DNA of 64,000 nt, from contig JAHCHY010000008.1 in the NCBI GenBank assembly GCA_026129485.1, positions 62,001 through 126,000 of the forward strand, written 5' to 3'. Below, one piece after another: positions 34,195 through 44,373 of the stretch (position 1 is its first letter; every line of letters begins with the position of its first letter). Below the pieces are notes generated by a model. That model had not been told where the DNA came from. It saw only the letters and a program-made list of their open reading frames with translations, and searched no databases. The translations under genes and the position numbers were made by a program. The DNA is from Cyclobacteriaceae bacterium. Lineage in GTDB: Bacteria > Bacteroidota > Bacteroidia > Cytophagales > Cyclobacteriaceae.

Positions 34195-35274
34195 TCAGGC
34201 GCGTGGCAGGCTGTCCACTAACGCACGCCATTTCTCCAGTTCGGCTAAACCGGGTTTGCGCAAGCCGAAGAACTGCACGATCATTTCCTTATTCTTATCA
34301 AATACTTCGATGGCTGTAACCACTCCATCCGTGGTAGGTTTCTTCACAATCCACGCACTGTCAATCATATCTTCGCGCAGGTGCATGTTAAAGTCCGGAT
34401 CGAGAATGTTCAGCCAGTTATCCATTACCCGTATGGTCTGGATTTTTCCCTGGTGGATCTGGATGTTTCCACGGCTTCCGGCAAACACCATGATCGGTAA
34501 ATGATCTTTCGCTGCACTTTCCAACAGATCTTTCAACGCATTTTTTTGAATGCGTTGAGAAAATTTTCCCTCCGCTAACAGCACGGCATCCAACCGGTTT
34601 ACCTGGTGCTTGCGCAGCATACCAAAAAAGTCGTGCGTATCTTTCATGTTTTCCCAGTCTGTAAGCAAAGCATCTTTGTCCACATCGCCAATAGCTTTTA
34701 CAGGAACTTCCTTTACAGGAGCTACAACAACTTCGGTTGATTGTTCTGTGGCTGTAAAATCAGCCACCAGCTTATCAAATGCTTCCTGGTTGCTGCCGGC
34801 TTTATTACCCGGGCCGGGCGCTACCAGAAATATTTTGGTTACGGCATTTCCGGCTTCATCAAAAATCTGGATGCTTTGCTGCAAGCCATGCGGTGTTTGC
34901 AGCCGTACGGCAAAGCCAAATTTCCATGCGGCAAAGAATACACGGGTTTCGATCGGGCCGATAACGGTTGCCATACGATGTGCGGGCGGCCCCATAATTT
35001 CAACTTTCTGAAACGGGCCTTTATGCTCCAGCACACAACCTTCGTTTCGCGTAAGCGACATCACACGACCTAATTCCGGCAATCGCTCAACCAGCTTTGT
35101 CCAGTCGCCTTCCAGCCGTGTGGTATAATCACCCACGGTAGTAGCCAGCAATTCGGCTTCGCTTACGCCTAACTCCTGCGCACAATCGCGAATGCGGAGA
35201 GTGGGTTTTACTTTTTTTAATTCGTCCCAACGCGCACGCAAAGTGGCTGATACGGGTTCTGCTAACTGGCTCAT
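34195..35274 (-). CDS. hmuS: Hemin-degrading / heme-transfer protein, HmuS/HemS family
   Basis: A 359-residue cytoplasmic protein made of two HemS/ChuX domains (about residues 15-165 and 200-350). Landmarks are LRARWDELKKVKPTLRIRDCAQELGVSEAELL near the start, MATVIGPIETRVFFAAWKFGFAVR, and HLREDMIDSAWIVKKPTTDGVVTAIEVFD near the end. HemS-type proteins accept heme after import and either release iron or pass it on. The ATG at 35274 overlaps the hmuV stop by 4 bases, showing it is the last gene of the hmuTUVS operon. A longer frame upstream adds unrelated residues. Confidence 0.92.
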   Translation of the reverse strand: MSQLAEPVSATLRARWDELKKVKPTLRIRDCAQELGVSEAELLATTVGDYTTRLEGDWTKLVERLPELGRVMSLTRNEGCVLEHKGPFQKVEIMGPPAHRMATVIGPIETRVFFAAWKFGFAVRLQTPHGLQQSIQIFDEAGNAVTKIFLVAPGPGNKAGSNQEAFDKLVADFTATEQSTEVVVAPVKEVPVKAIGDVDKDALLTDWENMKDTHDFFGMLRKHQVNRLDAVLLAEGKFSQRIQKNALKDLLESAAKDHLPIMVFAGSRGNIQIHQGKIQTIRVMDNWLNILDPDFNMHLREDMIDSAWIVKKPTTDGVVTAIEVFDKNKEMIVQFFGLRKPGLAELEKWRALVDSLPRA

Positions 35275-36077
35275 ATTGATTCTGTTTTTAAAGTGGATAA
35301 TGTAGTGCGTTCGGGCACGATGTAAGGACAATCCGTACACGGATCGTGATACACATTTACCCTACAGCAAAATGTTTCTTCTATAATAGGTTTGGTAAAT
35401 ACTTTTTTGGATTCGCCCTGCGCAACGATAATACCGTTACGCATAAAATAAAGATGATCGGCAAACTGAACGGCCTGGTTTAAATCGTGCACAATGGCCA
35501 GCACGCCAATGTTGCGTTCGCAGGCTTTTTTAACAAGACTGAAAATCAATTGCTGTTGCGCAATGTCTAAGCTGGAGGTGGGCTCATCCAGCAACACATA
35601 ACGCGGAAAGGCTCTCTGATCCCACACCTGGGCCAGCACACGTGTAAGCTGCACGCGCTGTTGCTCGCCACCCGATAATGTGAGGTAATTGCGGTTAGCC
35701 CAATCCGCCACCCCGGTAAGCTCCATTACTTCATCCAGCAGCTCCTGATTATATTTTGCCGCATTTCTGAAATGCTGCCGGCCCATTTCCACGATCTGCT
35801 TTACCGAAAACGGAAACTGAACATGCGAGTGCTGGGGTAATACGGCACGCACCGCAGAAAGCTGTGCTACCGAATGCGAAGCCGCCACCATATTATTGAT
35901 GCGAACTTCGCCTTTGTAGCCGGTTAACTCGTGCGATAAAATCTTAAGCAACGAACTCTTACCCGCCCCGTTCGGGCCGGCTATTGCCGTAAACGTTCCG
36001 GGCTGCACCGTAAGGTTTACGCCATTGAGCAACGTTTTTCCATTTATGGATAGCACGATATTTTTCGCCTCAATCAT
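35271..36077 (-). CDS. hmuV: Heme ABC transporter ATP-binding protein
   Basis: A 268-residue ABC ATPase. It has Walker A GPNGAGKSS, the signature LSGGEQQRVQLTR, Walker B YVLLDEPTSSLD and the H-loop AIVHDLNQA. It powers heme import through HmuU. It overlaps hmuU by 4 bases and hmuS by 4 bases, so all are translationally coupled. The C-terminal tail CRVNVYHDPCTDCPYIVP carries two cysteines in CTDC that are unusual for HmuV and might bind a metal or have no role. Confidence 0.93.
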   Translation of the reverse strand: MIEAKNIVLSINGKTLLNGVNLTVQPGTFTAIAGPNGAGKSSLLKILSHELTGYKGEVRINNMVAASHSVAQLSAVRAVLPQHSHVQFPFSVKQIVEMGRQHFRNAAKYNQELLDEVMELTGVADWANRNYLTLSGGEQQRVQLTRVLAQVWDQRAFPRYVLLDEPTSSLDIAQQQLIFSLVKKACERNIGVLAIVHDLNQAVQFADHLYFMRNGIIVAQGESKKVFTKPIIEETFCCRVNVYHDPCTDCPYIVPERTTLSTLKTESI

Positions 36078-37150
36078 CTTATATTAAAATCATTTTTATG
36101 ATTTGCCCGCACCAGCAGGAAAATGAAGAAGGGCGCCCCGATCAGTGCGGTTACAACACCAATAGGAAGCTCGGTGGGCGCCACCAGCGTACGCGCCAGT
36201 AAATCGGCCAATAATAATAAGACAGGCCCACCCAGCAACGAGGCAGGTAAAACCAGCCGGTTATCCGCACGGAAAACAACCCGCACTAAGTGTGGCACCA
36301 CTAACCCGATAAAACCGATTATACCCGCCAATGAAACGCTTACACCCACTGCCAGCGCGCTGAAAAACACAATTGATTTTTTCACGCGCTCCACATCCAC
36401 ACCCATGTGAAAAGCTTCTGCCTCGCCAATGGCAATGGCATTGAGCGGAAACTGGTAGGTTAACATCCACACGCTGGACAATATTAAAACCGGTGCTGTT
36501 ATTAAGACTTTCTGCCAGGTAGCGCCTCCTAAATCACCCAGCGTCCAGAAGGTGAACATGCGCAACTGGTTTTCATCCGCATAGAAAATAACCAGCCCCA
36601 TTAAGGCTCCGGCTAATGCATTAATGGCCACTCCGCCCAGGATCAGCACGGCAATATTTGTTTTGCCAAGCTGTTGCCCGATTTTCATTACCAGCATGGT
36701 TGAAGCAAAACCCCCGGCAAATGCAGCAACCGGCATTAGCAAGTGCATACCCAAACCGGCTTTCACAAACAAAAAATTGCTGCCGAATACAATTAACGCT
36801 ACAACGGCCAGCGCAGCACCGCTGGATACCCCGATCAACCCGGGCTCAACCAACGGATTGCGAAACAAGCCCTGCAAGGCCGCGCCACTTACGGCTAATG
36901 CCGCGCCAATTAAAATCGTCATTACAATCCGCGGCAAGCGTATGCTCCATAGAACAGTTTCGTGTATGGCATCGGGTTGTTGCGTGGTGAGCCCTACCTT
37001 GTATAACACAACCGATACAATATCTTTTACCGGTATGGTAACCTGGCCTATGCTAAGCGCCACCAGCGCGACCACTACCAGCGCAACAGAAAGGATACCG
37101 ATTATGGTACTTACTTTTTGTTGCTTCCAGGTAATGGCTACGGTTGTCAT
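36074..37150 (-). CDS. hmuU: Heme ABC transporter permease (FecCD family)
   Basis: A 358-residue inner-membrane permease with about ten helices, of the BtuC/FecCD family. It has RLPRIVMTILIGAALAVSGAALQGLFRNPLVEPGLIGVSSGAAL near residue 70 and FIGLVVPHLVRVVFRADNRLVLPAS with the coupling-helix region toward the C terminus. It forms the channel for heme delivered by HmuT. Its start overlaps the last base of hmuT and its end overlaps hmuV by 4 bases. Confidence 0.93.
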   Translation of the reverse strand: MTTVAITWKQQKVSTIIGILSVALVVVALVALSIGQVTIPVKDIVSVVLYKVGLTTQQPDAIHETVLWSIRLPRIVMTILIGAALAVSGAALQGLFRNPLVEPGLIGVSSGAALAVVALIVFGSNFLFVKAGLGMHLLMPVAAFAGGFASTMLVMKIGQQLGKTNIAVLILGGVAINALAGALMGLVIFYADENQLRMFTFWTLGDLGGATWQKVLITAPVLILSSVWMLTYQFPLNAIAIGEAEAFHMGVDVERVKKSIVFFSALAVGVSVSLAGIIGFIGLVVPHLVRVVFRADNRLVLPASLLGGPVLLLLADLLARTLVAPTELPIGVVTALIGAPFFIFLLVRANHKNDFNIR

Positions 37151-37977
37151 TATTGCTGGTGCGAATGAAGTTGTGTGGCTAATTCTTTTACCGCTTCACC
37201 CAGGCGGGGCCCAAAGTTGGAAAGCCTGATCCCGTCCATCGCAATAACCTGCTTCTTTTTTCCGGCTGGTAATTGCTGCACACCGGGTATGGCCAGCACG
37301 CCTTCTATACCTCCCAATGCCTGCACACCACTTTCAAACATGAGCAGAAAATCGGCCCGCGAGGTAAGGAGTGTTTCGGTGCTTAAGGGCTTGTAGCCTT
37401 CCACACCCGTTACAGCCGGAACGGCACCGGCATATTTCAATATTTCAGAAAAAGTATTTGCGCCTGCCAGGTTCAGGGCTGACTTATCGCGATTGAACAC
37501 ACACAACACACGTGGCGTTGTGCCTGATTGGCCGACAATCTTTTTTGCATCGGCAAGCTCTCCTTCAATTTTGGCAACCAGCTTTTTGCCTTCTTCCTGC
37601 CGGTTTAGCACTGCGGCAATTTTCTGAACCAGGTCTTTGGTGCCTTCAAATGAAAAAGTTCGCTCAATCGCCAGCACGGATATTCCGGCAGATTTAATGT
37701 GTTCGATTACTTCGGATTTAACATAATCCAACTCCACAATAAATAAAGTTGGTCTAAGGCTGATGATCCCTTCCGCGCTGATGCTGGTGCGATAGCCGAT
37801 GGAAGGAAGCTTTTGAATTTCGGCCGGGTATAAGCTGGTGCGATCGGAGGCCACAATTTTGGAGCAATCGCCCAGCGCACATACGGTTTCGGTAATGGCG
37901 CTGCCGGCTGTAATAATGCGCTGCCCTTGGGCCGAAAAAACGGTAAACAGCAGGGCTAACGGAAGAATATATTTCAT
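37150..37977 (-). CDS. hmuT: Periplasmic heme-binding protein
   Basis: A 275-residue substrate-binding protein with an N-terminal signal (MKYILPLALLFTVFSAQG) and no lipobox, so it is free in the periplasm. The cluster A-1 fold is evident in RIITAGSAITETVCALG and SIGYRTSISAEGIISLRPTLFIVE. A Tyr at the tip (GYRTS) matches the heme ligand known in ShuT/PhuT. It is the first gene of the hmuTUVS operon. A palindromic operator lies two bases before its ATG, so iron or heme regulation is very likely. Confidence 0.92.
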   Translation of the reverse strand: MKYILPLALLFTVFSAQGQRIITAGSAITETVCALGDCSKIVASDRTSLYPAEIQKLPSIGYRTSISAEGIISLRPTLFIVELDYVKSEVIEHIKSAGISVLAIERTFSFEGTKDLVQKIAAVLNRQEEGKKLVAKIEGELADAKKIVGQSGTTPRVLCVFNRDKSALNLAGANTFSEILKYAGAVPAVTGVEGYKPLSTETLLTSRADFLLMFESGVQALGGIEGVLAIPGVQQLPAGKKKQVIAMDGIRLSNFGPRLGEAVKELATQLHSHQQ

Positions 37978-37979
37978 TG

Positions 37980-37996
37980 TTTAGATTCTTTCTAAA
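37980..37996. promoter_or_regulatory. Heme-regulon operator at hmuT
   Basis: TTTAGAT-TCT-TTCTAAA is a 7-3-7 palindrome with one broken pair, starting three bases from the hmuT start codon. The same site occurs at the Cys-rich gene (38401-38417) and the heme receptor gene (43327-43343). Confidence 0.72.
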
Positions 37997-38068
37997 TAAA
38001 TGGCAAATGAAGCTACTATTTAGAGTTAATCCAAGTAAATGACGTAAAAATGCCCTAATCGGGGCGGT

Positions 38069-38398
38069 CTAAACTTTTGAGCTGACAATATTGCGCGCCT
38101 GCCACACCAGTTGAACCTGCCCGTAAAGCAGTTCAAGGTCTTCCAACTCATTGGAATTGAAAGTAATAAACAGGTTTTCGAGCGGGCTCCGGTAGATACG
38201 ATCCTGCCCGTTTGCCAGCGGAAACCAGAACTCCGGGTTATCGCGGTTTTGTAAAAGCCAGTCAAAGAACGCGGCCAGGTGATCTTCCGAAAAAGTGATC
38301 AGCAAATTGTTGAAAGCGAAATTGTACTCGTTACAACACGTGCACTGGCCGATATAGCCGCGGGGGCACTCCGCTATGATGTTAAAATTACAGCTCAT
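38069..38398 (-). CDS. Small Cys-rich protein (DUF6686-like), heme-locus member
   Basis: A 109-residue cytoplasmic protein without signal or membrane segment. Five cysteines lie in the first 22 residues (C3, C11, C19, C21, C22) around CPRGYIGQCTCCNEY, a pattern that could bind a metal or heme. The remainder (LLITFSEDHLAAFFDWLLQN, LFITFNSNELEDLELLYGQVQ) is conserved-looking. I recall a Bacteroidota family, DUF6686, of this type but am not certain. A perfect operator palindrome abuts its start, the same as at hmuT and the receptor gene, so it belongs to the heme or iron regulon. Its role is unknown. Confidence 0.75.
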   Translation of the reverse strand: MSCNFNIIAECPRGYIGQCTCCNEYNFAFNNLLITFSEDHLAAFFDWLLQNRDNPEFWFPLANGQDRIYRSPLENLFITFNSNELEDLELLYGQVQLVWQARNIVSSKV

Positions 38399-38400
38399 TA

Positions 38401-38417
38401 TTTAGAATTATTCTAAA
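38401..38417. promoter_or_regulatory. Heme-regulon operator (perfect copy)
   Basis: TTTAGAA-TTA-TTCTAAA is a perfect 7-3-7 palindrome starting three bases before the start of the Cys-rich gene. This is the best copy of the three and gives the consensus TTTAGAANNNTTCTAAA. Confidence 0.75.
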
Positions 38418-38615
38418 CAAATTTAACTGCCGGATCGAAGACTACTTTTAAAATCACACCGGTTATATAGCCCGTTACCGGAATAATTGTACCTGTAAAA
38501 GGGGTTGTTCAGATTCGTTCGCAAGCCTGTACATTTTTGAAGAAACAAAAGGCAGATCATCCTGAAAACAGAACAATTACAAAGATTTTGCATCTGGCCC
38601 GGTTTTGGGCATTTA

Positions 38616-38681
38616 GGAATTGGGCATTAGGTATTAGGACTGTGAAAGTAATTCAATGTCTATCACCTACTGCCAATTGCC
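38616..38681. repeat. Imperfect intergenic inverted repeat
   Basis: The arms 38616-38640 (starting GGAATTGGGCATTAGG) and 38658-38681 (CACCTACTGCCAATTGCC region) pair over most of about 23 bases with several mismatches. It lies in the 304-base gap between the divergent Cys-rich gene and a small membrane protein gene. Apart from this and the operator, that gap holds nothing I can identify. Confidence 0.4.
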
Positions 38682-38702
38682 TGCTTCTAATAACTAATAA
38701 CC

Positions 38703-38903
38703 ATGAGAGTTTTCCTTTCGCTTGTACTTTGGTTTATCCTGCTGGTGCTGTGCTGGCCGTTGGCTTTGCTCATGCTCTTTCTGTTCCCGATTATCTGGCT
38801 TGTCCTGCTTCCTTTCCGGATTGTAGGCTTCACGTTAGATGTGATCTTCAGCCTGGTAAAAGGGATCCTGCTGTTTCCGTTTAAGCTGGTGAAAGCGATC
38901 TGA
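38703..38903 (+). CDS. Small hydrophobic membrane protein
   Basis: A 66-residue protein that is almost entirely hydrophobic: MRVFLSLVLWFILLVLCWPL then LPFRIVGFTLDVIFSLVKGI. It should form two membrane helices with no sizeable soluble part. No family is recognised. It starts at the first ATG after an inverted repeat and precedes an SRPBCC gene by 80 bases. It lies inside the heme locus but has no operator. Confidence 0.6.
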   Translation: MRVFLSLVLWFILLVLCWPLALLMLFLFPIIWLVLLPFRIVGFTLDVIFSLVKGILLFPFKLVKAI

Positions 38904-38983
38904 TTTTAATTTGATTACCGGCTACTGACATACTGTTGTCATGCGGTTAGCAGATTTTGCATGAAACTTTAACTTCAAATTTT

Positions 38984-39406
38984 ATGCAGACCGGATTTAA
39001 AACTTCTTATACCACTACCATTCAGGCGCCTGCCGAAAAAGTTTGGGCTGCCATCACGCAACCGGAGCTGGTAAAGCAATATTTCTTTGGAACCAGCCTG
39101 GTTACCGACTGGAAACCGGGAAGCCCGATTTACTTCCGGGGTGAGTGGGAAGGCAAACCTTACGAAGATAAAGGTGTGGTATTAAAATTTGATGCTCCGC
39201 ATGAACTGGCTTATTCTTACCTGAGCAACTGGAGCGGCTTACCCGATAAAGAAGAAAACTATTTGTATGTAGCGTACACCTTAAGATCAGTAAACAGCAC
39301 AACCGAGCTTACGATTACGCAAACCAACTACGATGCAGACAAAGCTGCTCACAGCGAAGAGAACTGGGCTTCCCTTATTGAGGGTCTGAAAAAGCTGGTT
39401 GAGTAA
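38984..39406 (+). CDS. SRPBCC-domain protein
   Basis: A 140-residue START-like protein: FKTSYTTTIQAPAEKVWAAITQPELVKQYFFG at the start, then WKPGSPIYFRGEWEGKPYEDKGVVLKF and a C-terminal helix NWASLIEGLKKLVE. It belongs to the AHSA1/CalC group of small ligand-binding proteins. Nothing indicates the ligand. The ATG at 38984 is chosen; an upstream TTG would add nine residues. Whether its place in the heme locus is meaningful is unclear. Confidence 0.86.
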   Translation: MQTGFKTSYTTTIQAPAEKVWAAITQPELVKQYFFGTSLVTDWKPGSPIYFRGEWEGKPYEDKGVVLKFDAPHELAYSYLSNWSGLPDKEENYLYVAYTLRSVNSTTELTITQTNYDADKAAHSEENWASLIEGLKKLVE

Positions 39407-39414
39407 ACCTCTCG

Positions 39415-39726
39415 TTAAACAGAAGTGTCAGCTTCCAGCTCAAGCTCCCGCTTCTTCAAAGACTTATCCAGCCAGAATGTGCCGCCCGGTATTACCGATG
39501 CAGCAAGGGCAACCAGTGTGCTGAACCAATTCCACTTCATCGTACCTGTAATTGAAAACGTGAACAGGATATAAGCAATGAACAAAATACCATGCGCCCA
39601 GCCCACCACCTTTACAGCCACAGGAAACCCGAAATAGTATTTAAGCGGCATGGCAATCAATAACAACAGCAGGAACGAAATCCCTTCGGCCAACGCTACT
39701 TTTCTGAAAATCTTTAATTCTTTCAT
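39415..39726 (-). CDS. DUF3817 membrane protein
   Basis: A 103-residue protein with three hydrophobic segments. It has the DUF3817 pattern FRKVALAEGISFLLLLLIAMPLKYYF and VKVVGWAHGILFIAYILF (with the conserved W-H-G). The function of the family is unknown. The ATG at 39726 gives the family-typical MKELKIFRKVALAEG start. It is convergent with the SRPBCC gene and lies just downstream of the hemophore gene's terminator. Confidence 0.85.
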   Translation of the reverse strand: MKELKIFRKVALAEGISFLLLLLIAMPLKYYFGFPVAVKVVGWAHGILFIAYILFTFSITGTMKWNWFSTLVALAASVIPGGTFWLDKSLKKRELELEADTSV

Positions 39727-39762
39727 AGTAACTGATGTTAACAAGCAATTCATCGGTAAAGC

Positions 39763-39792
39763 AATAAAGCCTGCAAATTTGCAGGCTTTATT
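39763..39792 (-). terminator. Terminator of the hemophore/receptor operon
   Basis: AATAAAGCCTGCAAA and TTTGCAGGCTTTATT form a perfect 30-base palindrome, 27 bases past the hemophore stop. On the minus strand it reads as a GC-rich stem with a T-rich right side (TTTATTGCTTT). Confidence 0.65.
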
Positions 39793-39818
39793 ATATAAAC
39801 CCTAAACTCACTTAATTT

Positions 39819-41240
39819 CTAACCTGCTGCTTTCACCAGCTTGTATTCAATTACGGGCCTGCCGCGTGTACCGCCTTCGTTGGGATGGAAGCTGATGAAT
39901 TTGAGCTTATATACATTTCCGGATGCATCCTGCACCACGTAGAAGCGATCTCCATATACACCTATCGTTCCGGTAGTTGCCCGCCAGTTATGGCCAATCA
40001 CATAGCGCTCTGCCAAAAATGTGGTCGAAGCAATATTAGATTCATTGTATGCAGCGTACTCTACCGTACTGGTCAATACTTCTGCTGCTTTTACTCCACC
40101 GTGAATGTTGATGGCAACTATATCTGAAAAATTGTACGGGACAAGATTTCCGCTAAAAGTTGTTTGATATTGGGAATAGCTCCATAATATATCCCATTCT
40201 GCTTTTTTCGGCTCTACATTTACTATAGTACCACCATTAAAACTCAGGTGTTTAAAATTGTATGCTGCATCTTTAGGAATATCAACACTTGTAAAGCCCG
40301 AAGTTTGTTGAATAGTGCCATATTGTACGGTATAACCACCGCTTGCATTTCGTGTAATTCTTGCCTTAATCCACGGACGTGCAGGTGTGCCGCCTGCACC
40401 CCGATTGATAATTATTACTTTGTTATCGCTTGCTGTAGCAGAAATTGCAGGAATTACTGTGCCTGAAAGAGAGCCGTTCAGCGCATCGAAAAATGCAAAA
40501 TGTTCAGGAGCAGGAGCGCCCTGGCTTACCGCCAATGTTAAACCCACCGTATCGGCAGCGCCAATGCTTGCCAGGTCTGTTTCCGTAGTAACTTTTGCAC
40601 CGGCACTTGTAGTGTTGTTTAAAATTACCCTAAAGTCAGCGCCTGAGTAAAAACCTAAATCCCAACTGGCCCTCAACACCGATGCTTGGTTGTTTGATCT
40701 GAAGTTAACAAAAACTGAGTTAGCTGCGCTTGCTCCGGATTCTGCACCTGCAAGACCCTGCAAGGTTAATTGAGAGCCTTCTGAAACTATTGCAGAGAAA
40801 GAAAAGGTAAGCTCATTCGTTTCACCGATAAGCACACCGGTGGTCGACTCAATGGATGCAATTGTATATACGATGGTTTCGCCTCCGTCCAGGAACACAT
40901 CATCGCCCACAATAACCTTGAACGAAGCCGTGGTTGCATTTGCCGGTATGGTAACCGATAATGTGCCGCTTGCTGCTGCAGGCGTAGTGGTATAGTCCTC
41001 ACCATACACAATACCATTTTCCGTATAAGAAATCTGTACGGTTGTGGTTGAAGAAACCGCGCGTGTAAGATTGATCTTGACTTCCGCTTCACTTTCTCCA
41101 TCGGCAAGACCTAACGATGCAACTTCAAATGCTGCCAGGTTATCGGGCAGCGGTGGCTCATCTTCTTTACAGGAAGACAGCGAGCCAAGCAGCACAACAG
41201 TAAACACGAGTGATCCAAGTTTTAATAATTGCTTATTCAT
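39819..41240 (-). CDS. Calx-beta/HmuY-like heme-binding lipoprotein
   Basis: A 473-residue lipoprotein (lipobox ending LSSC, Cys24). After it comes a Calx-beta-like domain (about residues 35-150, with DDVFLDGGETIVYTIAS). The rest (about 158-473) resembles HmuY: SNNQASVLRASWDLGFYSGADFRV, then AEWDILWSYSQYQT, and YKLKFISFHPNEGG near the end. HmuY is a surface hemophore that takes heme from host proteins and passes it to a TonB receptor. The fusion of Calx-beta with HmuY is unusual in my reading. It lies 51 bases after the receptor gene on the same strand. Confidence 0.8.
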   Translation of the reverse strand: MNKQLLKLGSLVFTVVLLGSLSSCKEDEPPLPDNLAAFEVASLGLADGESEAEVKINLTRAVSSTTTVQISYTENGIVYGEDYTTTPAAASGTLSVTIPANATTASFKVIVGDDVFLDGGETIVYTIASIESTTGVLIGETNELTFSFSAIVSEGSQLTLQGLAGAESGASAANSVFVNFRSNNQASVLRASWDLGFYSGADFRVILNNTTSAGAKVTTETDLASIGAADTVGLTLAVSQGAPAPEHFAFFDALNGSLSGTVIPAISATASDNKVIIINRGAGGTPARPWIKARITRNASGGYTVQYGTIQQTSGFTSVDIPKDAAYNFKHLSFNGGTIVNVEPKKAEWDILWSYSQYQTTFSGNLVPYNFSDIVAINIHGGVKAAEVLTSTVEYAAYNESNIASTTFLAERYVIGHNWRATTGTIGVYGDRFYVVQDASGNVYKLKFISFHPNEGGTRGRPVIEYKLVKAAG

Positions 41241-41291
41241 TTGTTTATAAATTGATTGTTAGAAAAATTTCATTTAATGGTCAGGCAAAAT

Positions 41292-43316
41292 CTAATTCAG
41301 TTGAAAATTAAGGGCTATAAAGTATGATCTTCCATAGCTCATGGGTATGGCGCCCCCTGTACTATGCGCACCGCCTACATCCTGCGAGGTATTCTGAAGC
41401 CGTGTAACGTTACCCAGGTTTTTAACACCTGCGCTTACATTTAACGTTTTTGTGATCCGCTGGCCTGCAGTGAAGTCCAGCCAGTGAAATTCTTCACGCT
41501 CAGCCAGCCTTATATTGCCGCTTGCATATTCATAAACCGAACGCTTGCCGGTATATTTATAAAAAGCGGAAAGTGATGTACCTGTTTTTGTAAACTGGTA
41601 CGATACCGTTGCGTTTACCTCTGGCGTCCACATGATTTCAGGCAGCGAGGTATCATCTTCCGACAATTCATTATATACCCCGATGTGCGCCAACCCCAGG
41701 CTGGCTTTCCATGCTTTGTAGCTAAACGCATTATTAAGCGTAACACCTGCTGTCTTATACCGGCTTATATTAATGTATGTGGTAACAGCCGCGTTCTCAG
41801 GGTCAACGCCAAGTGCAATCATATTCCTGAACTCATTATAAAAAGCGCCTACTGTAGCCGTATAGCTATAGCTTGTTTTTGTTACTGCATTCCACGCTAA
41901 TGATGTAGAGTAGCTGTTTGAATATTCCGCCTCCAGATCGGGGTTGCCTTTTATGGAGTGGCTTGAATCAAAGAAGTAGAAATACAGCTCGCGCAAAGCA
42001 GGCGAGCGGAATCCTCTTGCGTAGGCCGCACGTAAATCCAGCACAGACGAGAGTTTTGCTTTTATGTTAACAGACGGGATAACCGGGGGCGCATCATACA
42101 CCGTGTTGTAAATAAACCGGAACCCGGGACGGATGTTTAAAAACTCAAAAGGTTTTGCTTCAGCAGAAAAAAACAATGCATAATCACCAATCTCCCGTTC
42201 ACGGTCAATCCGTTCCCCGGCACCTTTATTAAAATTCAGATCAAAGCCCGGCTGAAATGAAAGCTTATCGGTCATCCTGTATAAAAATGTTCCGCGCAGC
42301 GTAGTGCTGTTAAACTTTGCTTCATCTTGTGTGCCCGGCTCCGGTGAAAGCCTCACATCCTGAGTTGCTGCATCGTATAGCGTGGTTCGGGTTCTGCGTG
42401 TATAATCCTGAAAAGATCCTACGGCATTAAAACTCCACTTGTTGCTGATGTCCCATTCAGCCTGTAGCTGGTGCGTGTAGCGATCCGTAAGATATTCTTT
42501 ATCTGTAGCAAGGTTCGTGTTGGTATTGATAGCGCCTGCCGAAACAAGCGCTTCATTCAGGTAATCCAGCCGGTACCATGCGTTGAGCTTGTTATTGGTA
42601 TAACCCAGCGTGCCGCTTCCCAGCAACTGTTCTTTCGGGAGCCATTCTTTTACACGGCCTTCTTTATTGCCCTGCAAGCCTCCAAAGTTATTGCGCGTAA
42701 TACCCGCACCGGCATTAAATTTTTTACCCTGCCATTTGGCATACACGCTTTCGTTATGCACACCCTTTCCGGAGAAAGGACTGTACTCGTTGCCTGCGGT
42801 TTCTTCCAGTATGCGTGCCGAAACAGCCAGGGGCTTACCGCTTTTAATGGTTTTCTTCGTGATGATATTGATAACACCGGCCAGGGCATCAGAGCCATAT
42901 ACCACCGACATAGGGCCTTCTACAATCTCGATGCGCTCAACCTGGTTCATGTCAATCTGGTTCAGGCTCTCGCGTGTCGCACCGCGATCCAGCAGCGGTA
43001 CCCCATCCAGCAGGATCTTTACGTTCTGCCCTCTCATTCCCATCAGGGAAACATCTGCAGTACCCAGCGTAAGGTCACTCGAAAAACGCATACCAAGCTC
43101 GGTATTCAAAATGCCCTGCACATTGGTAGCATTACGCATGCGGATTATTTCAGGGCCGACTACCCGCACCTGATAAACCGATTTTTTCAGCGACTGGGGC
43201 TCATATTGCCCGGTAATCACTACCTCCTCCAGCATAGAGGTTTTTAAGCTATCACTTTCCTGCCCGCTGGAAAGAAAGGGGCAAATAAACAGGCCAAAAA
43301 GGGGTATTTTTTTCAC
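41292..43316 (-). CDS. hmuR: TonB-dependent heme receptor
   Basis: A 674-residue outer-membrane receptor. The plug domain has LEEVVITGQYEPQSLKK, LLDGVPLLDRG and the VEGPMSVVYGSDALAGVINIITKK box. The barrel includes the heme-receptor signature FRSP followed by an SSHSIKGNPDL stretch, resembling the FRAP/NPDL motif with a histidine between. That supports heme as the ligand. Its signal is MKKIPLFGLFICPFLSSG. The start is a GTG at 43316. A palindromic operator lies ten bases upstream and overlaps the promoter region. The hemophore gene follows on the same strand. Confidence 0.9.
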   Translation of the reverse strand: MKKIPLFGLFICPFLSSGQESDSLKTSMLEEVVITGQYEPQSLKKSVYQVRVVGPEIIRMRNATNVQGILNTELGMRFSSDLTLGTADVSLMGMRGQNVKILLDGVPLLDRGATRESLNQIDMNQVERIEIVEGPMSVVYGSDALAGVINIITKKTIKSGKPLAVSARILEETAGNEYSPFSGKGVHNESVYAKWQGKKFNAGAGITRNNFGGLQGNKEGRVKEWLPKEQLLGSGTLGYTNNKLNAWYRLDYLNEALVSAGAINTNTNLATDKEYLTDRYTHQLQAEWDISNKWSFNAVGSFQDYTRRTRTTLYDAATQDVRLSPEPGTQDEAKFNSTTLRGTFLYRMTDKLSFQPGFDLNFNKGAGERIDREREIGDYALFFSAEAKPFEFLNIRPGFRFIYNTVYDAPPVIPSVNIKAKLSSVLDLRAAYARGFRSPALRELYFYFFDSSHSIKGNPDLEAEYSNSYSTSLAWNAVTKTSYSYTATVGAFYNEFRNMIALGVDPENAAVTTYINISRYKTAGVTLNNAFSYKAWKASLGLAHIGVYNELSEDDTSLPEIMWTPEVNATVSYQFTKTGTSLSAFYKYTGKRSVYEYASGNIRLAEREEFHWLDFTAGQRITKTLNVSAGVKNLGNVTRLQNTSQDVGGAHSTGGAIPMSYGRSYFIALNFQLN

Positions 43317-43326
43317 GGCAGCAAAG

Positions 43327-43343
43327 ATTAGAATCGTTCTAAA
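43327..43343. promoter_or_regulatory. Heme-regulon operator at the receptor gene
   Basis: ATTAGAA-TCG-TTCTAAA is a 7-3-7 palindrome with one mismatch, 10 bases before the receptor's start and overlapping a TAATCTTTG -7-like box on the minus strand. It is the third copy of the motif. It is also upstream of the divergent AraC gene. Confidence 0.7.
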
Positions 43344-43476: not shown

Positions 43477-44373
43477 ATGATAGATTTACAGACCCACACA
43501 TCCGCAATTGAAAATACCCAAAAAGGTAACCTGAAGATCCTGCTGGAGAAAGACGATATGGTTCTGCAAACCATTGAAAGCCCTTCTGATACCGGAACGG
43601 AACAGGCTATGCTGGTTAACCGCAACATCATTCACTTTTATTTTTGTGTGGATGGCCCCGCGGAGTTTGCATTCGGCCCGCATTACAGCCGGCAGATTGA
43701 AAAGCAACGAAACTATTTCTTCTATAACCCGGAAGCCGATTTACCCTTCCAGCTAAAGCTGGCACCCGGTGGAAGATTAGTGATTCTATCCATCATGCTG
43801 GAAAGCCTGCACAAGCTTTTTACGCACGATGCACTCCCCTTTCTGAAACCGGAAAATGTAAAGACCAAATTTTACGATGAGCGTGAGGTTCCGGCACAGC
43901 TATATGTCGTGCTCAACCAGCTTTTCACGATAAGCTTAAGTCCGAATGCAGAAAAACTGTATTACCAGGGAAAAGTGCTTGAATTGCTGGGGCTTTATTT
44001 TTCTGAAAAGAAAGCCAATACGGAAAGCTGTCCTTTTCTGAATGACCGGGAAACGGTAAGAAAAATAAAACATGCCAAGGAATACCTGCTGAAGCACATG
44101 GAAGCTCCGCCCGGGCTGAAAGAGTTAGCCAAAATTGCCGGGCTGAACGAATACCAGTTAAAAGTCGGCTTTAAGGAAATTTATGGCAATACGGTATTCG
44201 GCTACCTGCTCGATCACCGGTTAGATCATTCACGCATGCTGCTTGATTCGGCCCGGTACCAGGTAAATGAAGTCGCTTACCAGATCGGTTATACCAACCC
44301 CAGTCATTTTATTGCCGCATTCAAAAAGAAATTCGGGATTACACCCAAGAAGTATTTAATGAACCGGCATTAA
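43477..44373 (+). CDS. AraC-family regulator, PchR-like
   Basis: A 298-residue transcription factor. An N-terminal cupin-type sensor half (about residues 1-185) is followed by two AraC helix-turn-helix motifs (PPGLKELAKIAGLNEYQLKVGFKEIYG and QVNEVAYQIGYTNPSHFIAAFKKKFGITPKKYL). The linker DHRLDHSRMLLDSARYQV and the LKVGF/FGYLLDHRL pattern resemble PchR, a siderophore-responsive activator. It is divergent from the heme receptor gene, so it may control receptor expression in response to an iron carrier. The effector is unknown. It overlaps the convergent HerA-like gene by 4 bases. Confidence 0.85.
   Translation: MIDLQTHTSAIENTQKGNLKILLEKDDMVLQTIESPSDTGTEQAMLVNRNIIHFYFCVDGPAEFAFGPHYSRQIEKQRNYFFYNPEADLPFQLKLAPGGRLVILSIMLESLHKLFTHDALPFLKPENVKTKFYDEREVPAQLYVVLNQLFTISLSPNAEKLYYQGKVLELLGLYFSEKKANTESCPFLNDRETVRKIKHAKEYLLKHMEAPPGLKELAKIAGLNEYQLKVGFKEIYGNTVFGYLLDHRLDHSRMLLDSARYQVNEVAYQIGYTNPSHFIAAFKKKFGITPKKYLMNRH

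Follow-up and report, generated by a model that had tools for sequence, protein, structure and literature searches.

A 64,000-nucleotide stretch of the genome of a Cyclobacteriaceae bacterium (contig JAHCHY010000008.1, hereafter the window) carries, judged by protein domains, a full heme-uptake set made up of hmuT, hmuU, hmuV, hmuS, a TonB-dependent receptor and a HmuY protein, and three copies of one palindrome stand directly before gene starts of this locus. We interpret these palindromes as operators of the iron-dependent repressor Fur and put the probability of this reading at about 0.85. Provided that Fur is present and that the genes form the transcription units suggested by their order, Fur-Fe2+ would occupy the box when iron is sufficient. 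The box would lie on the promoter -7 region and the short leader, and bound Fur would block transcription of hmuTUVS, of the gene for a DUF6686 protein and of hmuR-hmuY. When iron falls, Fur would leave the box and heme uptake would be switched on.

Candidate Fur Boxes at the Heme Locus

The palindrome TTTAGAA-N3-TTCTAAA is exact at 38401-38417 and has one mismatch at 37980-37996 and 43327-43343 (Table 1). These are the positions given in an earlier note made from the letters of the window; the distances it reported to the starts of hmuT (2 bases), the DUF6686 gene (2 bases) and the heme receptor gene (10 bases) are correct too, and the YAAA extension it described is present on the plus strand. 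The site at 38401 can also be read as TTAGAAT-N-ATTCTAA, which is the 7-1-7 form of Fur-family boxes. For two of the three boxes, an iron or heme uptake gene (hmuT or the receptor gene) starts no more than 100 bp away, and the third precedes the DUF6686 gene.

Such sites are rare. With at most one mismatch, the window holds three, compared with a mean of 0.04 and a largest count of 1 in 100 dinucleotide shuffles; at three mismatches, the 10 sites against 5.28 expected are near noise. The whole assembly (4,075,102 bases) has five places with at most one mismatch, three of them inside 5.4 kb of the window. If the other two are counted as background, three would fall in a stretch of this length with a Poisson probability of 3e-9. 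One of these other two, a one-mismatch box, lies upstream of sdhC (C21:32553); the second is an exact palindrome at C8:84280.

The 17 bases at 38401 are the same as the core of 5'-ATTTAGAATTATTCTAAAT-3', the predicted Fur box of Riemerella anatipestifer, a member of the Bacteroidota (PMC5609570), and across the 14 arm bases the window boxes differ from it at 0, 1 and 1 positions. That paper reports electrophoretic mobility shift assays (EMSA) of Riemerella Fur on four promoters, including those of hmuR and sprT; its abstract gives the E. coli box in place of ATTTAGAATTATTCTAAAT. In further work on Riemerella, the promoter with the rhuB box ATTTAGAATTATCCTAAAT was bound by Fur in EMSA only with Fe2+ (PMC10986502), and mutation of the Fur box raised rhuH transcription (PMC11967795). 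What the earlier note had proposed for this phylum, a Fur-superfamily repressor that uses this box for heme uptake, has thus been published for Riemerella Fur (PMC5609570, PMC10986502, PMC11967795).

Conservation in Related Genomes

Across 194 genomes of the same order, the exact pattern has 172 sites, while its reversed letters have 59 and a second control palindrome of the same composition has 105. The random scatter that the earlier note had named as refuting its proposal was not seen. Among the sites examined (73 of the 172, in 68 loci, and 30 of the 105 controls), 65/73 lie within 250 bp of a gene start compared with 8/30 for the control, and only 2/73 lie solely inside a reading frame compared with 19/30. 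A TNA centre is present in 34 of the 73 box sites and in two of the 30 control sites.

According to Pfam, the 80 proteins encoded downstream of exact boxes include 17 TonB plugs, eight LuxR-type response regulators, nine multiheme Cytochrome_C7 and four NapC/NirT proteins (the last two groups may overlap), three GlutR, two heme oxygenases, two DUF6686 and two PepSY proteins. The LuxR-type regulator genes directly behind the box are those of L067, L068, L070-L072, L074, L164 and L167; in four of these loci (L067, L071, L072, L167) they have a receptor or HmuY gene as a near neighbour, as for a regulator of a heme-uptake locus. The hand-assigned uptake sites have the 8-1-8 form with a TNA centre in 23 of 34 cases, a figure to be read with the caution that the mismatch templates favour this centre. 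The seeds for sorting receptor genes and scanned downstream proteins into classes were chosen by eye within the sets to which they were then applied.

The position of the box relative to the promoter element TAnnTTTG, which we take to be the -7 consensus, would in most cases suit a repressor. An exact element lies at most 20 bp from the box, or between two boxes (the second with up to three mismatches), in 11 of 17 receptor genes, several of which are close homologues from one genus. Both heme oxygenase genes have an exact TAnnTTTG at +13, overlapping the box. In the window, an exact element abuts the box of the DUF6686 gene (Table 1).

It is very improbable that the window palindromes are chance or terminator-like sequences. 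The exact site at C8:84280-84296 gives some ground for this view, as it folds into a hairpin of 14 bp (-16.7 kcal/mol) with six T behind it and looks like a terminator. However, the hairpin itself stands 28 bases before a SprT-like gene (Pfam PF10263), and sprT is among the EMSA targets of Riemerella Fur, so that this site may serve as terminator, as operator or in both roles. Taken together, the three window sites refute the explanation by their number and by their placement before gene starts, and the control palindrome, unlike the box, falls mostly inside reading frames.

Table 1. Genes, candidate boxes and promoter elements of the heme locus in the window.
Feature	Position	Strand	Remarks
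hmuS, heme-degrading HemS/ChuX protein	34195..35340	-	Pfam PF05171 1.6e-71, PF06228 2e-52
hmuV, ATPase	35271..36077	-	Pfam PF00005 (ABC_tran), 9.3e-25
hmuU, permease	36074..37150	-	Pfam PF01032 (FecCD), 1.3e-90
hmuT, periplasmic heme-binding protein	37150..37977	-	Pfam PF01497 (Peripla_BP_2), 9e-32
Fur-type box TTTAGAAAGAATCTAAA (minus-strand reading)	37980..37996	-	1 mismatch, 2 bases before hmuT
-7-like element TTCATTTG	starts 15 bp before hmuT box		1 mismatch to TAnnTTTG
DUF6686 gene ('Cys-rich gene' of the earlier note)	38069..38398	-	Pfam PF20391, 2.7e-10
Fur-type box TTTAGAATAATTCTAAA	38401..38417	-	exact, 2 bases before DUF6686 gene
-7 element TAAATTTG	38418..38425	-	abuts DUF6686 box; exact TAnnTTTG at -8 relative to box
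HmuY-domain protein	39819..41240	-	Pfam PF14064, 2.5e-18; downstream of receptor
TonB-dependent heme receptor, hmuR-like	41292..43316	-	GTG start; Pfam Plug + TonB barrel
Fur-type box TTTAGAACGATTCTAAT	43327..43343	-	1 mismatch, 10 bases before heme receptor gene

The best NCBIfam match of the receptor is TonB-hemin, under the cut-off of that model. An AraC-type regulator gene (43477-44373) is adjacent to the receptor gene and divergent from it. Proteins of the DUF6686 family, which has no described function and for which our literature search found no paper, may bind or handle heme or iron. A second DUF6686 gene occurs in the same genome (C39:148013-148288; L111:1972-2319, minus strand), divergent from a receptor-like gene, and in 15 of 29 loci from relatives the DUF6686 gene lies beside heme-uptake or receptor genes, judged by phmmer matches of which several are weak.

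Identity of the Regulator

The earlier note had equated the palindrome with the iron control element (ICE) bound by Irr in Alphaproteobacteria. The ICE consensus is presumably TTTAGAA-N3-TTCTAAA, and the 7-3-7 core of the window boxes agrees with it. The nearest known relative is nevertheless the Bacteroidota Fur box and not the Irr element, and since the window box is the published Riemerella box, Fur rather than Irr is the likely regulator. Irr itself was rejected: the canonical Fur proteins of two genomes of the same genus score 32-35 bits against NCBIfam Irr cut-offs of 150 and 170, and the one weak Fur-family member of the window's own assembly reaches 22-24 bits with the Irr models.

In three genomes of the same genus, the best Fur match has an E-value of 2.2e-28 or lower and is encoded next to purA and a STAS gene, with relA/spoT on the other side in two genomes and on another contig in the third. 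One of these proteins has solved Fur structures as its best matches and keeps the HDH and YE motifs and the CxxC pair; it stays under every NCBIfam cut-off, with its top scores to Fur models. The window's assembly, which is 98% complete, gave no match for purA (4/4 relatives and 14/14 control genomes were positive) and none for relA/spoT (3/3 relatives searched were positive). Because these genes are missing as well, a gap that took the canonical fur block is more likely than loss of fur, and the block is probably in such a gap.

The weak Fur-family protein of the assembly (L016) is unlikely to be the regulator, as it is Zur-like and the 4 kb around its gene (L274) have no box with up to three mismatches. 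Autoregulation of fur was not apparent in the relatives: none of 30 Fur loci (L076-L105) has an exact or one-mismatch site, and four have a two-mismatch site anywhere. A Fur-family match is present in 178 of the 194 genomes and absent from 16; exact sites occur in 97/178 and 4/16 of these, respectively (p 0.035, kinship ignored).

We consider it quite unlikely that the window boxes belong to a DtxR/MntR-type protein or to the neighbouring AraC-type regulator. The genome does have one DtxR-family gene (PF02742) and the AraC-type gene adjoins the receptor, but the DtxR gene stands ahead of an Nramp gene and its region has no box at up to three mismatches. Among the 80 proteins encoded behind the box in relatives, few are AraC-like (one, L050, in a phmmer search with the AraC protein of the window). 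An inverted repeat, TTGTCTAAA...TTTAGACAA, followed by TACTTTTG, lies before dtxR and the Nramp gene (contig C24; L110, minus strand) and is likely an MntR operator.

Several observations weigh against Fur as repressor at these sites. Two of the three window boxes carry a mismatch, and a search of the box surroundings found no exact -7 element beside the box of hmuT or that of hmuR. Six of the 17 receptor genes in relatives fit simple occlusion less well, as the -7 element follows a lone box by 45-56 bp in three (L047, L052, L186) and no exact element is found in the other three (L048, L181, L183). The single Pfam FUR match of the assembly is weak (51 bits) and Zur-like, with FurB/Zur as its best PDB matches, so that the assembly is without a canonical Fur, and the gap argument that accounts for this is indirect. 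The AraC-type protein could also act as an additional regulator of the receptor. Still, the agreement with the Riemerella box and the recurrence at uptake genes make Fur the likely binder at the uptake sites.

A Second Class of Sites at Iron-Using Genes

Three exact sites in the order sample precede hemA. When the regions upstream of hemA were matched to TTTAGAATNATTCTAAA or TTTATAATNATTATAAA, 36 of 76 had a box with up to two mismatches and 52 of 76 with up to three, compared with 0.4 and about 4, respectively, in first-order Markov copies of the same regions. The 76 leave out 12 of 88 loci that could not be anchored but that are included in the 87 distinct regions; L177, L182 and L187 entered the set through their exact sites, L240 is a repeat of L177, and close relatives were not thinned. 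Of the 87 distinct regions, 56 have a box with up to three mismatches and 31 have none.

These boxes stand at a near-fixed distance from the promoter. An exact TAnnTTTG follows 51 of the 56 boxes, with a distance of 62-65 bp from box start to element start in 39 cases. The box lies about 45 bp upstream of the -7 element, as would be expected of an activator that touches RNA polymerase. The remaining spacings are partly in step with the helix (53, 74, 75, 84-86) and partly out of step (46, 101, 122). A Rayleigh test on the non-modal spacings gave p 0.06 for hemA boxes with up to two mismatches, p 0.16 when three-mismatch boxes were added and p 0.007 when ActA sites and the sdhC of the window's genome were added, so helical phasing is suggestive only. 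In this genome, hemA is preceded by TTTATAATCATTATAAA (C39:167584-167600) with the -7 element TACTTTTG at spacing 85, and the one-mismatch box of sdhC is followed by TAATTTTG at spacing 52. Several hemA promoters, L203, L204, L228 and L236 among them, carry an FNR/CRP-like repeat (e.g., TGATAAAAATCA) in the interval from the Fur-type box to the -7 element.

We scanned a collection of 84,980 species for this layout (TTTAGAANNNTTCTAAAT, 44-46 bases, TAnnTTTG), which gave at least 117 stretches, and examined 80 loci. As the scan fixes the spacing beforehand, it indicates which genes have the layout and not how constant the layout is; near-fixed spacing is shown for hemA only. By their record titles, 75 of the 80 loci are from Bacteroidota and the others from Pediococcus, an Acidobacterium, two Chlorobiota and one other bacterium. 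Five loci gave no downstream gene, and 78 had enough flank for comparison of centres and flanks. Among the matches listed, 60 of the 75 downstream proteins are ActA-type cytochromes (26), SdhC (12), HemA (7), NuoB (5), aconitase (4), NqrA (2), RseC (2) and CcmE (2); the rest are two GyrA/ParC and 13 others, one of which has many [4Fe-4S] motifs and looks like RnfB. Pfam and NCBIfam concur, with 25 cytochrome c, 12 sdhC_b558, seven hemA and five NuoB assignments among the matches listed. The targets of the scan are the iron-consuming side of metabolism. The ActA cytochromes are presumably part of ACIII, judging from their sequence and neighbouring gene.

Seven ActA sites were found without a spacing condition, and here the exact -7 element is at 74, 105, 129 or -22, with none in three. 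Another multiheme protein (P0003) is a NapC/NirT, NrfH-like cytochrome by its phmmer label and CxxCH pattern and belongs to a different class from the ACIII ActA cytochromes; a search with it found nrfH-like genes in 14 of the 194 genomes, and sites with up to two mismatches in nine of 17 loci. The two classes of sites also differ in sequence: a TNA centre is present in 16/78 scanned sites among the matches listed but in 23/34 uptake sites (p 3e-6), and the flanks differ too. In Emticicia (L309, L337) the activator-placed box precedes a GyrA/ParC-type gene, an odd target for an iron regulator. In a metagenome-assembled genome of Acidobacteria (L318:5798-7924), the same box (TTTAGAATTATTCTAAAT) is found where a Fur-family gene begins; a catalase gene comes next, and this is possibly a PerR-type autoregulated unit.

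One Regulator or Two

A box of this family that lies about 63 bp before the -7 element, or whole helical turns from that, could be an activator site bound by Fur-Fe2+, at hemA and the genes for ACIII, sdh, nuo, acn, nqr and others. A single regulator would then switch uptake off and iron use on with no small RNA, an extension of the Fur-operator reading to which we give a little less than an even chance. It would account for the excess of hemA boxes over the Markov copies, for the spacing shared by 39 of 51 of them, for the predominance of iron-using genes in the scan and for the boxes before hemA and sdhC in the window's genome. A hemA box with up to two mismatches is present in seven of the 12 genomes that have one Fur-family match and whose hemA upstream region was available, so in these genomes the Fur-family binder, if there is one, is that protein. 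Genes of these kinds are also lowered in Riemerella when iron is low; the RNA-seq study lists SDH, aconitase, fumarase, NuoG, a quinol:cytochrome c oxidoreductase subunit, cbb3 oxidase and NrfHA (PMC5609570). Direct activation by Fur is known for nuoA-N, acnA and sdhCBAD in Caulobacter crescentus (PMC6120978, citing da Silva Neto 2009). Against one regulator, the Riemerella fur mutant still lowers sdh, aconitase and nuoG when iron is low, although genes were here compared by kind and not by box. One genome (G009, a single contig) has no Fur-family match but an exact box before actA, with a -7 element that is not consensus. The difference in TNA centres means that the two site classes are not identical, the spacing outside hemA was imposed by the scan while the freely found ActA sites are spread, and over a third of the hemA regions (31/87) are without a box.

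Alternatively, two proteins might share the core, with Fur at the uptake genes and a different iron- or heme-responsive regulator, a non-Irr protein with an Irr-like job, at the iron-using genes; we hold this for almost as likely as the single regulator. The differing preferences in centre and flanks fit such a division, as do the iron response that these genes retain in Riemerella lacking Fur and the box before actA in the genome with no detectable Fur. However, we found no candidate protein, and the genome lacking Fur has no hemA box. Since the half-sites TTTAGAA/TTCTAAA are identical, the TNA-centred members at least should moreover be bound by Fur in genomes that have it. Fur and another partner are about equally likely as binder at the iron-using sites.

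Significance

The heme-locus boxes carry a published Fur box over into a further lineage of the phylum, where they are candidate operators. The second-class sites matter more, since they offer a promoter-level account of how respiration and heme synthesis could be lowered across a large phylum when iron is scarce. There are even odds, in our estimation, that uptake and use of iron in Bacteroidota are both governed by a single DNA word through its position alone, repressing uptake when it lies on the promoter and activating use when it lies about 63 bp (or whole helical turns from that) upstream of TAnnTTTG. The iron-using side would include hemA, ACIII, SDH, complex I, NQR, aconitase and cytochrome maturation and would be read by Fur or another partner. 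If this is true, the iron-sparing response would be built into promoters without a RyhB-like RNA. The Riemerella RNA-seq lists such a response, and the sections of the paper used here assign no site to those genes (PMC5609570). A search of open-licence PubMed Central found no paper that describes activator-placed sites in Bacteroidota, which is weak evidence of novelty. New here are the palindrome at a fixed-like distance before the hemA promoter and the layout at iron-using genes.

Comparison with Known Systems

The Riemerella Fur box shares with the window boxes the core, the phylum, the kind of target (hmuR, hemin receptors) and the nearness to the start codon. Riemerella belongs to the Flavobacteriaceae, another lineage of the phylum than the organism of the window, and binding was assayed there whereas our evidence is from sequence. 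The Irr box of Alphaproteobacteria presumably has the same 7-3-7 core, and Irr also controls iron-using genes. By the NCBIfam cut-offs, however, Fur from the genus of the window's organism does not count as Irr, and the uptake sites here favour the 8-1-8 form. The existence of the Irr box is documented in PMC3413700. Har/PgFur of Porphyromonas gingivalis (PMC4222909) is likewise a Fur-family regulator of Bacteroidota linked to heme. Har binds hemin and is without the usual HxH metal site, whereas the canonical Fur from the genus of the window's organism retains HDH and CxxC in the alignment.

For the iron-using genes, the closest likeness is to activation of the Caulobacter type, whose functional gene set overlaps that of the second-class sites; Fur would here have to bind and be needed for expression, which the Riemerella fur mutant in part contradicts. 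A Fur-type box upstream of sdh, nuo and acn and outside the core promoter was found in other genomes, with the spacing imposed, and at the sdhC of the window's genome. Unlike in Caulobacter, which is of another phylum, the sites here also precede hemA, the genes for ACIII and NqrA and others, the promoter has the TAnnTTTG element, and the spacing at hemA is near-fixed.

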